A stretch of 64,000 nt of DNA from Candidatus Polarisedimenticolaceae bacterium (lineage in GTDB: Bacteria; Acidobacteriota; Polarisedimenticolia; Polarisedimenticolales; DASRJG01): the NCBI GenBank assembly GCA_036376135.1, contig DASVAW010000057.1, positions 1 to 64,000 of the forward strand, written 5' to 3'. Both the position numbers and the translations under genes were made by a program. Positions 31,972 through 37,277 of the stretch are shown in pieces. Position 1 is the first letter of the stretch; each line of letters begins with the position of its first letter. Under the pieces are notes generated by a model. It searched no databases, had not been told where the DNA came from, and was given only the letters and a program-made list of their open reading frames with translations.

Positions 31972-33195
31972 CTACTTCCTCGCCGGGGTCCTCGTCGCGG
32001 CCTTGCCGGGGGACACGCTCGATCCGGCCTCGGGTTTCCCCGGCTGCACCGGGAAGCACGCCCGTTGCCCCTGCGGGGTGCACAGCTGCGTGTCGATCGC
32101 GTCCAGTCGCGAGGTCAGGTACGTCGCGAGCAGGTCGATCTGCTGCGCCATCGCGGCGAGGCGGGCCTGGACGTCGTCGAGGGCGGCTTCGGTGTTCCCG
32201 GCGGAGATCGCGAGCGCATCGAGGTTCGACTTGAGCTCGGTCGTGCACCGGGTGAGCCGGTCCATCTGCGCGCCGTCGTTCGTGTCCGCGGCGACCTGGA
32301 AGCCGTCGTTCACCGCGTTCGCGATCCCGTCGAGGATCGCGAGGACGAGACACCCCGCCTCGCAGTTCCAGCCGAAGGCGTCCTGGTTGCAGACGACCGA
32401 GCAGCCGTTGAACGCCGCCCCCGTCACGTTCTTGGCGACCTGCGACGCCTGGAGCGCCACCGGGCCGGGGAAGAGATCGTAGGCGTACTGGTTGCAGTCG
32501 AGCGGGGCGCGCGTGGCGGGCATCGCGGCGTACGCCTGACGCATCCGCGCCGTCGTGCGGGTGATCTCGTCCGTCGCCTCGTCGAGGGCGACCGAAAGCT
32601 CGTCGATCTCCTGCTCGGCCTCCACCGCCGCCTCGGGGTCGTAGTTGTCCGCGTCGCTCGCCGGCGGCGCCTGGCAGATCTGGACGCACACCTCCTTGTT
32701 CCGGCCCTTCGTCTCGCACAGGCCGTCGTCGTCGCCGATCCCGTCGCCGGCGACCTCCTCGCAGACCTCGCCCGCCTCGCACGGCTGGGCGTCGTCTCCC
32801 TTCCCGTCGCCGAGCTTCTCCTTGATGTAGCAGTCCTCCTCCGCGGACTTCTGCTTCTTGACCTTCGCGCGGAACAACTGCGCCTGGTGGGCGCGGACCT
32901 TCGCGGTCTGCGCGCGCTCGCGGCTCGCGAGCAGCGAGGACACCTGCGCGTCGGAGAAGACCGGCGCGCGGTTCATCGCGCGGCTGGCTCGGTCGAACTC
33001 GATCGCCGCGTCGACGTACCGGAACATCGCCGCGTTGGCGTTCTCGGTCTTGCAGTCGATGCGGTCGTTGTACCGCTCCGCCGGGAACTCGGCGTCGCAG
33101 TCCCGCTCGACCGGCGGCGCCGCCCAGGCACCCGCCGCGAGCGTCGTGGCGAGGAGGAGGAGGATGAGGATGGGCAGGAATCGGCTGCGCTGCAT
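31972..33195 (-). CDS. Cys-rich secreted protein with Asp/Gly-rich repeats
   Basis: 407 residues. Signal peptide (LLLLATTLAAGAWA). A coiled region (about 60-110) leads to a Cys/Asp/Gly-rich stretch near 120-180, with GDGKGDDAQPCEAGEVC and GDGIGDDDGLCETKG, which resembles thrombospondin type-3 calcium-binding repeats. Helical regions with further Cys pairs (CSVVCNQ, CEAGC) and a C-terminal low-complexity tail (PGKAATRTPARK) follow. No family recognised. GGGAGG precedes the ATG at 33195; the longer frame to 33273 lacks a signal peptide. Adjacent to the kinase-BRCT gene on the same strand. Confidence 0.75.
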   Translation of the reverse strand: MQRSRFLPILILLLLATTLAAGAWAAPPVERDCDAEFPAERYNDRIDCKTENANAAMFRYVDAAIEFDRASRAMNRAPVFSDAQVSSLLASRERAQTAKVRAHQAQLFRAKVKKQKSAEEDCYIKEKLGDGKGDDAQPCEAGEVCEEVAGDGIGDDDGLCETKGRNKEVCVQICQAPPASDADNYDPEAAVEAEQEIDELSVALDEATDEITRTTARMRQAYAAMPATRAPLDCNQYAYDLFPGPVALQASQVAKNVTGAAFNGCSVVCNQDAFGWNCEAGCLVLAILDGIANAVNDGFQVAADTNDGAQMDRLTRCTTELKSNLDALAISAGNTEAALDDVQARLAAMAQQIDLLATYLTSRLDAIDTQLCTPQGQRACFPVQPGKPEAGSSVSPGKAATRTPARK

Positions 33196-33298
33196 GACGG
33201 CACCTCCCGGGCGCATCGCGCCATCGGACGGGGCCGTGCCACAGGAATACGACCGATCGTTCCCCGCTTCCATGGGGAGTTGTGGTTTTGCCGCAGAT

Positions 33299-33371: not shown

Positions 33372-34070
33372 ATGCGACGTTTCGTGACCACCGCGTCGAT
33401 CCTGGCCGTCGTGTCGCTGGCGACGCCCTCGCGCGCGGAGACCGTCCTCGTTCCCGCGGACCGCGACGCCACGCTCATCGAGGATCCCGACGGCGCCCTG
33501 GCCAACGGCTCGGGGCCGGTGTTGTTCGCGGGGCGGACGAATCAGGGGGCGGGGAGCGTCCGGCGCGGACTCCTCCGCTTCGACGTCGCGGGATCGCTTC
33601 CGCCGAGGGCGATCGTGGAGTCGGTGACCCTCCACCTGACCGCGCTCCCGGGGAACCCCGACCCGTCCCGGTTCCGTCTCTACCGCGTCCTCGAGGATTG
33701 GGGGGAAGGCGCCTCGTTCACGACGGGCGGGCGTGGGGCCCCCTCCGAGCCCGGTGACGCGACCTGGCTCCACACCTTCCACGACGACCGGTTCTGGGAG
33801 TACGCCGGGGGGCGATTTGTCGGAACGGCAAGCGCCGCGTTCGAGACGGAAGGCCCGGGGGCGTACGCCGTCGCCGGCGATCGCAAGCTGCTCGCGGACA
33901 CCCGACTCTGGGCCGCGGCGCCGTCGCGGAACTTCGGCTGGATCCTGATCGGGGACGAGACGCGGCCGCAGAGCGTCCAGCCGTTCGCGACCCGCGAGGC
34001 CGACGATCCCGGGCAGCCCCCGGTTCTCGAGATCACCTTCCGCGTGGCGGGTGAGCCGCACCCCCGTTGA
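33372..34070 (+). CDS. Secreted DNRLRE-domain protein
   Basis: 232 residues with a signal peptide (ending PSRA). The mature protein is one DNRLRE-type beta-sandwich: AETVLVPADRDATLIED with a substrate-facing start, GPVLFAGRTNQGAGSVRRGLL, RFDVAGSLPPRAIVESVTL and a final strand LEITFRVAG. Similar domains bind or decorate surface polymers; this one has no other module. The next gene carries a related N-terminal domain, so the two are probably products of duplication and may share a location. ATG at 33372 starts the signal peptide. Confidence 0.85.
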   Translation: MRRFVTTASILAVVSLATPSRAETVLVPADRDATLIEDPDGALANGSGPVLFAGRTNQGAGSVRRGLLRFDVAGSLPPRAIVESVTLHLTALPGNPDPSRFRLYRVLEDWGEGASFTTGGRGAPSEPGDATWLHTFHDDRFWEYAGGRFVGTASAAFETEGPGAYAVAGDRKLLADTRLWAAAPSRNFGWILIGDETRPQSVQPFATREADDPGQPPVLEITFRVAGEPHPR

Positions 34071-34172
34071 TCGATGTCACGCGGGGGGCGGCGCGATCGA
34101 GGCTGCGCGCCGGTACCCTTTCTCCGTAAAGCGGTCGCCGCGTGGTCGGCGCCGTTCTCCGGGGGTCCCGTC

Positions 34173-37100
34173 ATGAGCCGCATCCTTCGCCTCGCCATGG
34201 TCGCGGCCTGCTCCGCGAGCGCCGCGTTCGCCGACACCGCGACCCTCTACCCGATCAAGGACAACACCCTCTACGAGCCGATCCAGCAGGACGCGTTCGC
34301 GGACAAGAGCGACGGCGCGGGCCCGACGATGTTCACCGGGCGGACCAAGGATGCGCTCAACCAGGCCGGCCAGGCCGCGGTCCGGCGCGCGGTGCTCGAG
34401 TTCGACGTGGCGGGGGCGATCCCGGCGGGGGCGACGATCCAGAGCGTCCAGCTCACCATGTACTGCGACAAGGTGAAGGCGAATACCGGCTTCAACGTCA
34501 CCCTGCACCGGCTGAGCGCCGAATGGGGGGAGGGGACGTCCAACACGGGGAACAGCCAGCAGGGGCGCGGCGAGCCCGCGACGACCAACGACGCGACGTG
34601 GCGGCACACCTTCTACCCGAACGCGTTCTGGACGACCCCCGGCGGCGACTACGCGGGGACCGCGAGCGCGACGCGGTCGGTGGGCGCGGTCGGGTCCTAC
34701 ACGTGGGGCTCGACGAGCGGCATGGTCGCCGACGTCCAACTGTGGCTGAACACGCCGTCGCAGAACCACGGCTGGCTGGTGAAGGGACTGGAGACGCAGA
34801 CGGAGACGGCCAAGCGATTCGGTACCCGCGAGAACGCGACGACGACGTCGCGGCCCAGGCTCGTGATCGACTACACGCCGGCGACGGTGAGCGGCGCCTG
34901 CTGCGAGGGGTCGACCTGCTCGATCCGCACCTCGGCGGGATGCGCCGCGGTCTCCGGGACCTACCAGGGGGACGGGACCTCGTGTTCCCCGAACCCGTGC
35001 GTGGTGGCCAGCGGGGCGTGCTGCGCGGCGAGCGGCCTGTGTTCGGTCGAGACCCAGGCGGCCTGCCAGGGAGCCGGGGGCACGTACCGGGGAGACGGCT
35101 CGACGTGCGGGGCCGTCGAGTGCTCGATCGTGCTCACGCCGTTTCTCGACCCGCTCCCCCGTCCCGCGGTCGCGACGCCGACCTCCGGCCAACCGGGGGG
35201 GGCGGCCGGCTACACGCTGACCATGAAGGAGGTGCAGCAGACCCTGCACAGCCAGCTTCCCGCGACGACGGTGTGGGGATTCGACGACGGCACGCACGGC
35301 CCCGGTTACCCCGGTCCGACGATCGAGGCGCGGCGGGACCAGCTCGTGACCGTGAACTGGGTGAACGACCTGCGCGTCGGCGGGACCGGCCCTCTGCGGA
35401 CGACCCACTACCTGGCGGTCGACCAGGACTGCATCATGGGGGCGGAGAACACCGCGAAGACGGTTTTCCACCTGCACGGCGCCCACGTCCGCGAGCAATA
35501 CGACGGCTACCCGGAGCTCACGTTCCTCCCCGGGTTCGACGCCACGTATGAATACGAGAACCACCAGCAGGCGGGGTACCTCTGGTATCACGACCACGCG
35601 CTCGGGATCACCCGACTCAACGTCTACATGGGGCTCGCCGGGCTGTACCTGCTGCGGGATTCGGTCGAAGACGCCGTGAACCTCCCGGTCGGCGAATACG
35701 AGGTCCCGCTCGTGATCCAGGACCGCAAGTTCAATCCCGACGGCACGCTGAGTTATCCGTCCGAGTGGATGGACCACTTCTTCGGGGACAAGGCGCTCGT
35801 CAACGGGAAGGTGTGGCCCTACCTCGATGTGAAGCGGGGCAAGTACCGGTTCCGCCTGCTCAACGGTTCCGGGTCGCGCGTCTACACGTTGTCGCTGGCG
35901 CCTCCGACCGGGACCCTCAACTTCACCGTCATCGGGACCGAAGGCGGGTTGCTGGAGGCGCCGGTCCACGGCGTCGGCCAGCTCACGATCGGCCCCGGGG
36001 AGCGCTACGACGTCGTGGTCGATTTCGCCGCCTACGCGAACGGCACCGAGATCCTCCTCACGAACAGCGCGGCGGCGCCTTTCCCCAACGGGACCCCGAG
36101 CCTCCCGCAGATCATGAAGTTCCGCGTCGGAAGCCTGGCGGGGGACACGGATCCGCTCCCGGCCACGCTCCGGCCGATCGCGCGGCTGCAGCCCGCGGAG
36201 GCGGTGCGCTCGCGGGACTTCCGGCTCAAGACGATGACGGACGGCTGCGGCAACTCGAAGTGGGCGATCAACGACCTCGGCTGGGAGGACATCACGGAGT
36301 ATCCCGAGCTCGGCACCGTCGAGATCTGGCGCTTCATCAACGACTCCGGCGTCTCGCACCCGATGCACATGCACCTCGTGAACTTCCAGGTCCTCGACCG
36401 GGACGGCTTCACGAAGGGGGCCGGGGGTGAGATCATCCCGAACGGGAACCCGCAGGCGCCGCCGGCGGAGGAGAACGGCTGGAAGGACACGGCGATGGTC
36501 GCACCGAACGAGATCCTGCGGGTCATCGCGAAGTTCGAGAGCTACAAGGGGCGCTACGCCTACCACTGCCACATCCTCGAGCACGAGGACCACGAGATGA
36601 TGCGGCAGTTCCAGACGATCCAGTGCGGCGACGCGGTCCTCGACCCGACCGAGGAGTGCGACGACGGCGAGAAGACCTCCCTGAACGGCTGCGACGCCTC
36701 CTGCGACGCGGAGGAGTTCGTGACGCTCAGCGGGACCGCCGCGGGGGGCTCCGTCTCCGTGACGGTCGGCGGCGAGGTCGTGACGGTCACGACGACGCCG
36801 GGGCAGACCGCCGAGCAGGTCGCCTCCGCCCTCGCCGCGGCGATCAACGCCGACCCGGAGCTCCAGGCGGCGGGGGTCGCCGCGACCGCGGTCGGTCGCC
36901 GCGTCGTCACGAACGGCGACGTCACGAACGTCACCCTCGCCGACGCGGGACTCGACGAGGTGCTCGACCTCCGCGTGGAGAAGACGCGCCTGTGGTGGGG
37001 GACGATCGGCGGTGCGACGTCCTACGACGTCGTCCGGGGGCGGCTCGATCTGCTCCGAGCCGGCGGCGGCAACTTCGCGGACCCGTTCGTGACCGAGGCG

Positions 37101-37277
37101 TGTCTCGCCAACGACCGGGCGTCGACGTTCTGGGAGCACACGGAGAATCCCGCGACGGGGCAGTCGATCTGGTACCTCGTCCGGTCCCAGCCGGGGGGAA
37201 CGTACGACAGCGGGGCGCCGACGCAGTCGGGATCGCGGGACGCGGAGATCGCGGCGTCCGGGCAGGGATGCCCCTGA
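34173..37277 (+). CDS. Multicopper oxidase fused to an N-terminal DNRLRE domain
   Basis: 1034 residues. Order: signal peptide (ending AAFA); DNRLRE beta-sandwich (about 20-240); two GACC-type Cys-rich repeats (about 245-325); a CotA/bilirubin-oxidase-like multicopper oxidase (about 345-815); a myxococcal-type Cys-rich repeat (EECDDG...NGCDASC, about 828-850); and a C-terminal beta-rich tail. All copper motifs are intact: HLHG (H433, H435), WYHDHALG (H473, H475), HPMHMH (H729, H732, H734) and HCHILEH (H798, C799, H800, H804) with axial M809. It probably oxidises phenols, metals or pigments at the cell surface. It follows the single-domain DNRLRE gene by about 100 bases. Confidence 0.9.
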   Translation: MSRILRLAMVAACSASAAFADTATLYPIKDNTLYEPIQQDAFADKSDGAGPTMFTGRTKDALNQAGQAAVRRAVLEFDVAGAIPAGATIQSVQLTMYCDKVKANTGFNVTLHRLSAEWGEGTSNTGNSQQGRGEPATTNDATWRHTFYPNAFWTTPGGDYAGTASATRSVGAVGSYTWGSTSGMVADVQLWLNTPSQNHGWLVKGLETQTETAKRFGTRENATTTSRPRLVIDYTPATVSGACCEGSTCSIRTSAGCAAVSGTYQGDGTSCSPNPCVVASGACCAASGLCSVETQAACQGAGGTYRGDGSTCGAVECSIVLTPFLDPLPRPAVATPTSGQPGGAAGYTLTMKEVQQTLHSQLPATTVWGFDDGTHGPGYPGPTIEARRDQLVTVNWVNDLRVGGTGPLRTTHYLAVDQDCIMGAENTAKTVFHLHGAHVREQYDGYPELTFLPGFDATYEYENHQQAGYLWYHDHALGITRLNVYMGLAGLYLLRDSVEDAVNLPVGEYEVPLVIQDRKFNPDGTLSYPSEWMDHFFGDKALVNGKVWPYLDVKRGKYRFRLLNGSGSRVYTLSLAPPTGTLNFTVIGTEGGLLEAPVHGVGQLTIGPGERYDVVVDFAAYANGTEILLTNSAAAPFPNGTPSLPQIMKFRVGSLAGDTDPLPATLRPIARLQPAEAVRSRDFRLKTMTDGCGNSKWAINDLGWEDITEYPELGTVEIWRFINDSGVSHPMHMHLVNFQVLDRDGFTKGAGGEIIPNGNPQAPPAEENGWKDTAMVAPNEILRVIAKFESYKGRYAYHCHILEHEDHEMMRQFQTIQCGDAVLDPTEECDDGEKTSLNGCDASCDAEEFVTLSGTAAGGSVSVTVGGEVVTVTTTPGQTAEQVASALAAAINADPELQAAGVAATAVGRRVVTNGDVTNVTLADAGLDEVLDLRVEKTRLWWGTIGGATSYDVVRGRLDLLRAGGGNFADPFVTEACLANDRASTFWEHTENPATGQSIWYLVRSQPGGTYDSGAPTQSGSRDAEIAASGQGCP

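Follow-up and report, generated by a model that had tools for sequence, protein, structure and literature searches.

A class-wide C-terminal domain of an acidobacterial lineage as a candidate sorting or anchoring domain of a secreted CotA-type multicopper oxidase

The multicopper oxidase encoded at 34173 to 37277 on the forward strand of the window (the whole analyzed stretch, 64,000 nucleotides of an acidobacterial genome of 4.38 Mb in 179 contigs, 97.6% complete, with the gene on contig C57) ends in a domain that, judged from sequence, is a new part: it is found throughout the class, lies at the C terminus, and belongs to no curated family (hereafter, the tail). Because this domain is carried by dozens of exported proteins and lies at the place of known labels, it is probably an undescribed sorting label. 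On balance, we favor its being a general, lineage-specific C-terminal sorting or anchoring domain of the acidobacterial class of the source genome, borne by an oxidase that is Sec-exported. The oxidase would leave the cytoplasm by the Sec route, fold and load copper outside the inner membrane, and be placed by the tail at or beyond the outer membrane; its CotA-type site would oxidize the substrate, with the DNRLRE and GACC modules acting as binders or spacers. The anatomy of the protein and the distribution of the tail are what the sequences show; recognition of the tail by an export or anchoring machinery is what we infer.

The gene, delimited by its open reading frame and homologues, encodes a DNRLRE-GACC-multicopper oxidase-tail protein of 1,034 amino acids. 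The open frame begins at 34074, and translation from the ATG at 34173 yields a predicted Sec-type signal peptide (residues 1 to 20; 34173 to 34232), a stretch of low pLDDT. This is followed by a DNRLRE domain (residues 20 to 238; 34230 to 34886), which the NF033679 model matches over residues 64 to 232 with 60.7 bits (curated cut-off, 34), and by two GACC Cys repeats recognized by sequence and alignment, each with six Cys (residues 241 to 276 and 281 to 317; 34893 to 35000 and 35013 to 35123). The CotA-type multicopper oxidase occupies residues 321 to 816 (35133 to 36620), and a myxo-type disulfide repeat occupies residues 817 to 848 (36621 to 36716; TIGR02232, 27.5 bits; cut-off, 20.8). A separate, secreted DNRLRE protein of 232 amino acids that lacks the tail is encoded upstream on the same strand (33372 to 34070; NF033679, 38.8 bits). 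The earlier note had read these domains and the separate DNRLRE protein from the sequence alone, including an intact oxidase from H433 to M809, and each was recovered in its place. Its unassigned C-terminal tail does lack a Pfam or NCBIfam family, but it is not one unit: it splits into a small alpha/beta module (residues 849 to 928; 36717 to 36956), delimited by the structure model and by its recurrence in other class oxidases, and the repeated tail family proper (residues 933 to 1034; 36972 to 37274), a candidate sorting or anchoring domain with a probable Fn3-like fold and a Cys-Pro end, defined by profile, position, and fold. The former module recurs in the class oxidases of loci L059, L185, L186, L187, and L188 and in a 2,930-amino-acid frame of genome G007. 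The full-length AlphaFold2 model is good (mean pLDDT, 86.4), its confidence dropping over the signal peptide and the disulfide repeat and within portions of the tail; its Foldseek list is filled by oxidases, so that this fold comparison covers the oxidase domain.

The enzyme itself appears, from its sequence, to be of a known kind, a CotA-type laccase-like oxidase. PF07732 (Cu-oxidase_3), PF00394 (Cu-oxidase), and PF07731 (Cu-oxidase_2) all match over the Pfam cut-off, and the 12 copper ligands (H433, H435, H473, H475, H729, H732, H734, H798, C799, H800, H804, and M809), i.e., ten His, one Cys, and one axial Met, are in place. The best solved relatives are the Bacillus CotA laccases and bilirubin oxidase (376.6 bits; 1gsk and 7z5p), and the structure search with the full-length model matched 1w6l (E, 1.3e-56). 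The enzyme may oxidize phenols or manganese outside the cell; CotA-type genes have been used to mark manganese oxidases in Planctomycetota MAGs (PMC10732223). A second CotA-like oxidase of the source genome, without DNRLRE or tail, is encoded on contig C2 (L193:3663-6734, forward strand), directly upstream of a tail-bearing kelch protein.

The same domain order, which the earlier note had proposed to seek in other genomes, proved to be a recurrent, widely spread architecture. Among the best 80 of 160 relatives of the window protein, homologues came from Acidobacteriota, Myxococcota, Planctomycetota, Gemmatimonadota, Eisenbacteria, Bacteroidota, and Verrucomicrobiota. The alignment comprised the window protein, 55 loci that covered 690 or more residues of the query, and the half protein of L059; the joint presence of DNRLRE and oxidase in these rows is a selection effect of the length choice, whereas the GACC repeats between them are not. 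From one to seven such repeats separate the two domains in 55 of the 56 complete rows from seven phyla (the exception being L052), and the ligand set is intact in 56 of the 57 rows, the 57th being the half protein. No description of this order was found among papers that mention DNRLRE, none of which, going by the titles, is on an oxidase. Four homologues from a single genome, Sedimentisphaerales PL25a_bin.123 (L055 to L058), lie inside open frames of more than 2,200 amino acids, and at L059:3845-7343 a frameshift, either genuine or an assembly error, divides the orthologue between two open frames that overlap.

When the C-terminal 107 residues of the window protein were used as the query, 25 matches were retrieved in its own genome, nearly all of them ended by the stop codon and most by Cys-Pro. 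In a 36-member profile of the tail, C101 is invariant and W10, D20, G24, C45, P61, and P102 are nearly so; the two conserved Cys (Cys977 and Cys1033 of the window protein) presumably pair as a disulfide. Pfam and NCBIfam gave no convincing family over the 36 members, and Pfam fn3 matched none of them. Likewise, the NCBIfam type IX secretion system (T9SS) sorting domain models matched neither the window protein (E, ≤1) nor any of the 36 members (E, ≤0.1), and TIGR02595 (PEP-CTERM) and TIGR03901 (MYXO-CTERM) gave no match in the window protein. The separate structure prediction of the tail reached a pLDDT of 73, with 3mpc as the best, weak Foldseek match (E, 0.045); the sequence profile also pointed to 3mpc among solved structures (E, 0.0064), so that an Fn3-like fold is probable, although the evidence for it is weak. 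T9SS domains in the Foldseek list of the tail (8gl8_D; E, 0.59) were set aside as nonsignificant. Going by the titles listed, the tail was not found in the literature on C-terminal sorting, type IX secretion, and PEP-CTERM/exosortase in Acidobacteria.

Scanned with this profile, all 41 genomes of the class carried the tail, in 3 to 110 copies each (median, 26) and at least 1,370 in total, the counts being lower bounds in genomes where 119 candidates were scored. Of 149 genomes sampled evenly across the phylum, 27 had the tail, i.e., 15/15 class members and 12/134 others, the latter belonging to few families and holding 1 to 19 copies. Of the 50 genomes behind the homologous oxidases, three had it: a class member, in 93 copies, and two planctomycetes, each by a single weak match. 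Its position is nearly strict. No more than 25 residues separate the last copy from the stop codon in 22/23 proteins of the source genome, 30/30 top-scoring class proteins, and 19/20 weaker matches that were not part of profile building; the exact Cys-Pro end was present in 19/23, 27/30, and 11/20 of these proteins, respectively (one row of the position survey, L213, is probably a different open reading frame from the intended one). Internal copies also exist. When 20 carriers of the source genome were followed in longer stretches, the tail ended within 3 residues of the stop in all of them, and a simple scan for hydrophobicity, in which the best-scoring start is chosen, found a candidate leader in 18/18, the other two carriers being truncated by a contig end. 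Pfam scans of 18 of these 20 carriers revealed unrelated cargo, including glucose/sorbosone dehydrogenase (GSDH) with PKD, kelch, FG-GAP propellers, penicillin amidase, M28 peptidase, GH43, thrombospondin-type repeats, and BNR and PD40 propellers. Two FG-GAP propeller proteins of the source genome (L169 and L172) combine a MopE-type copper-binding motif with the tail. Among class oxidases with an intact 3′ end, the tail was present in 10/10, although they are spread over three places of the DNRLRE tree.

The main argument for sorting comes from what stands in place of the tail in homologous oxidases, and its basis is five ends that reach or exceed their curated cut-offs. The oxidase is followed by PEP-CTERM in L004 and L005 (21.5 and 18.7 bits; cut-off, 16), MYXO-CTERM in L019 (21.6 bits; cut-off, 20), a T9SS type A domain in L033 (23.0 bits; cut-off, 23), and a dockerin in L060 (29.8 bits; cut-off, 22.9); IPTL-type and most dockerin-like ends are visible in homologues but remain below the curated cut-offs. 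Since L004 and L005 share 68 and 67% identity, respectively, with the window protein and fall with it in one group of the DNRLRE tree (100/100), the swap between PEP-CTERM and tail lies between close relatives. The machinery agrees with these ends: full-length exosortases (at least 175 bits) occurred in 9/9 genomes with PEP- or IPTL-type ends, as well as in five other genomes of that survey, and SprA was detected in the three tested genomes of Bacteroidota, Gemmatimonadota, and Eisenbacteria, which served as positive controls. Because homologues carry known sorting ends with matching machinery, the tail would do the same job by another route, which points, as far as sequence can tell, to the C terminus rather than DNRLRE as deciding the destination of the protein. 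The T9SS, exosortase, and MYXO-CTERM routes were each set aside for the tail itself. SprA was found in 0/41 class genomes against 3/3 controls, and no T9SS sorting domain matched; no full-length exosortase was detected in the class, where weak partial matches occurred in 9/41 genomes (best, 39.7 bits) and none in the source genome; and the lack of a TIGR03901 match speaks against MYXO-CTERM. GspD-like secretins of type II secretion matched in 41/41 class genomes, none over the cut-off, a result that speaks neither for nor against that route.

The most durable alternative, compatible with a sorting tail, is that DNRLRE anchors the oxidase on a polysaccharide and the tail is incidental. DNRLRE precedes the oxidase across phyla and is accompanied by the neighboring stand-alone protein, and PMC9971899 describes TM6-N4, a CBM96 module about 30% identical to DNRLRE domains, as binding alginate. 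However, the CBM96 model (PF24517) scored 20.1 bits on the window domain, under its cut-off of 26; the Lys/Arg/Tyr set of the TM6-N4 basic groove could not be placed, given that the window domain gave no alignment to a solved CBM96. In solved structures, the closest DNRLRE protein (8wab) was a weak profile match (E, 0.021), the profile otherwise gave one chance match, and phmmer gave none. An anchoring DNRLRE also leaves the C-terminal ends unexplained, and we regard this reading as somewhat doubtful. The stand-alone neighbor is a regular companion: it was present in 7/9 class loci with flanks (both exceptions coming from one genome) and also in other phyla, at nine loci, the gene order being variously upstream, divergent, or convergent. 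Eleven stand-alone domains cluster together in the DNRLRE tree (98/92), separately from the fused domains, and five others, from Myxococcota and Planctomycetota, are placed elsewhere; since they fall in separate places, the pairing with the oxidase probably arose more than once. None of the seven class partners carries the tail, and the stand-alone partner at L007 ends in PEP-CTERM (17.4 bits; cut-off, 16). This neighbor excepted, no other gene of the window is clearly conserved beside class oxidases. Divergent from it, a secreted-looking Cys-rich protein is encoded at 31972 to 33273 on the reverse strand, with no clear homologue near other class oxidases. The view in the earlier note of an extracellular oxidase within a multidomain surface-type protein is supported, the N-terminal domain being related to DNRLRE and kept in orthologues; together with the Cys-rich modules, it is a long-standing companion of the enzyme that probably binds or spaces the oxidase on the surface.

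The tail could instead be a small stabilizing or adhesive Fn3-like C-terminal cap devoid of sorting information. Fn3-like domains are commonly mere spacers, the fold matches of the tail are ordinary Fn3 domains (3mpc; VIA Z of at most 6.0 over about 75 residues), and some copies are internal. Yet the near-strict C-terminal position and the conserved Cys-Pro end exceed the needs of a cap, and known sorting signals replace the tail in homologues, all of which makes a cap unlikely.

The remaining alternative, a divergent T9SS with the tail as its C-terminal domain, brings in the C25 peptidases, found in 29/41 class genomes (20/24 of the good ones). One kind, of about 1,450 residues and without a tail in those read, matched PorU (124 to 209 bits; cut-off, 420) or its relative PorU2 best in 6/6 sampled proteins (e.g., L227: NF033707, 208.6 bits; 6za2, i.e., PorU, E of 2e-9). 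A second, gingipain-like kind ends in the tail itself (L222 to L226 and L233), parallel to gingipains with T9SS domains; two such proteins that were scanned consist of a propeptide and a catalytic domain. Both kinds are in keeping with a divergent T9SS, which we nevertheless judge very improbable: SprA is absent from all 41 genomes while the same model detects it in the three control phyla, the PorU-like matches lie below the cut-offs of 420 and 450, the source genome has no C25 match, and the scanned neighbors of the PorU-like gene are PqqD, radical-SAM, and sigma-factor genes, with no T9SS gene named among them. Across 20 loci chosen for this gene (L234 to L253), the radical-SAM, ECF sigma, and PqqD families occurred 16, 16, and 13 times, respectively; L239:870-7629, for example, encodes a PqqD-like protein, a radical SAM/SPASM enzyme, the PorU-like C25 peptidase, and an ECF sigma factor. 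This conserved locus has the look of a peptide-modification or sortase system that has not been described. As a lead only, the PorU-like peptidase may act as the sortase in some members of the class, or it may serve in peptide modification unrelated to the tail. C25 was discarded as an obligatory partner of the tail, which is present in genomes at least 90% complete that lack C25 (the source genome, G006, G012, and G022). Tail counts were higher in genomes with C25 (median, 36 versus 19.5; P = 0.024), but the difference is weaker per Mb (P = 0.065), and the counts track genome size (rho, 0.88).

Returning to the sorting or anchoring domain that we favor, its presence in every class genome examined would make it possible to predict a large part of the proteins on the surface of uncultured acidobacteria, and it would indicate an export or anchoring route missed by current annotation. 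We advance only tentatively the bolder idea that the tail marks cargo for a SprA-less system of outer-surface export or attachment, so far undescribed and parallel to T9SS, which would handle as many as about 100 proteins per cell, laccases, proteases, and glycosidases among them, with Cys-Pro as the mark and the PorU-like C25 peptidase (alongside PqqD, radical-SAM, and ECF sigma genes) as the sortase in part of the class.

Comparison with known systems sets the tail and the oxidase apart in different respects. If sorting holds, the tail is most like the T9SS type A domain (TIGR04183), i.e., a small terminal beta-sandwich on many unrelated secreted proteins, gingipain-like proteins included, from which it differs in having no sequence match, a class without SprA, and a conserved terminal Cys-Pro. 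PEP-CTERM (with exosortase) and MYXO-CTERM ends occupy the place of the tail in homologous oxidases; these are a short signal, a membrane helix, and a basic tail, whereas the domain described here has about 100 residues and, by its sequence, no membrane helix. With bacterial Fn3-like domains (3mpc and 5g56) it probably shares the fold, but it escapes Pfam fn3 and has an added C-terminal extension and a Cys pair. The N-terminal domain of the window protein is a DNRLRE member over the curated cut-off of NF033679, while the Pfam model of CBM96 (7VBO) scores it below cut-off. Finally, the oxidase domain is about 40% identical to the spore-coat laccase CotA/bilirubin oxidase of Bacillus and shares all 12 copper ligands with it; CotA is a single-domain spore protein, whereas the window enzyme is predicted to be secreted and carries additional DNRLRE, GACC, disulfide, and tail domains.
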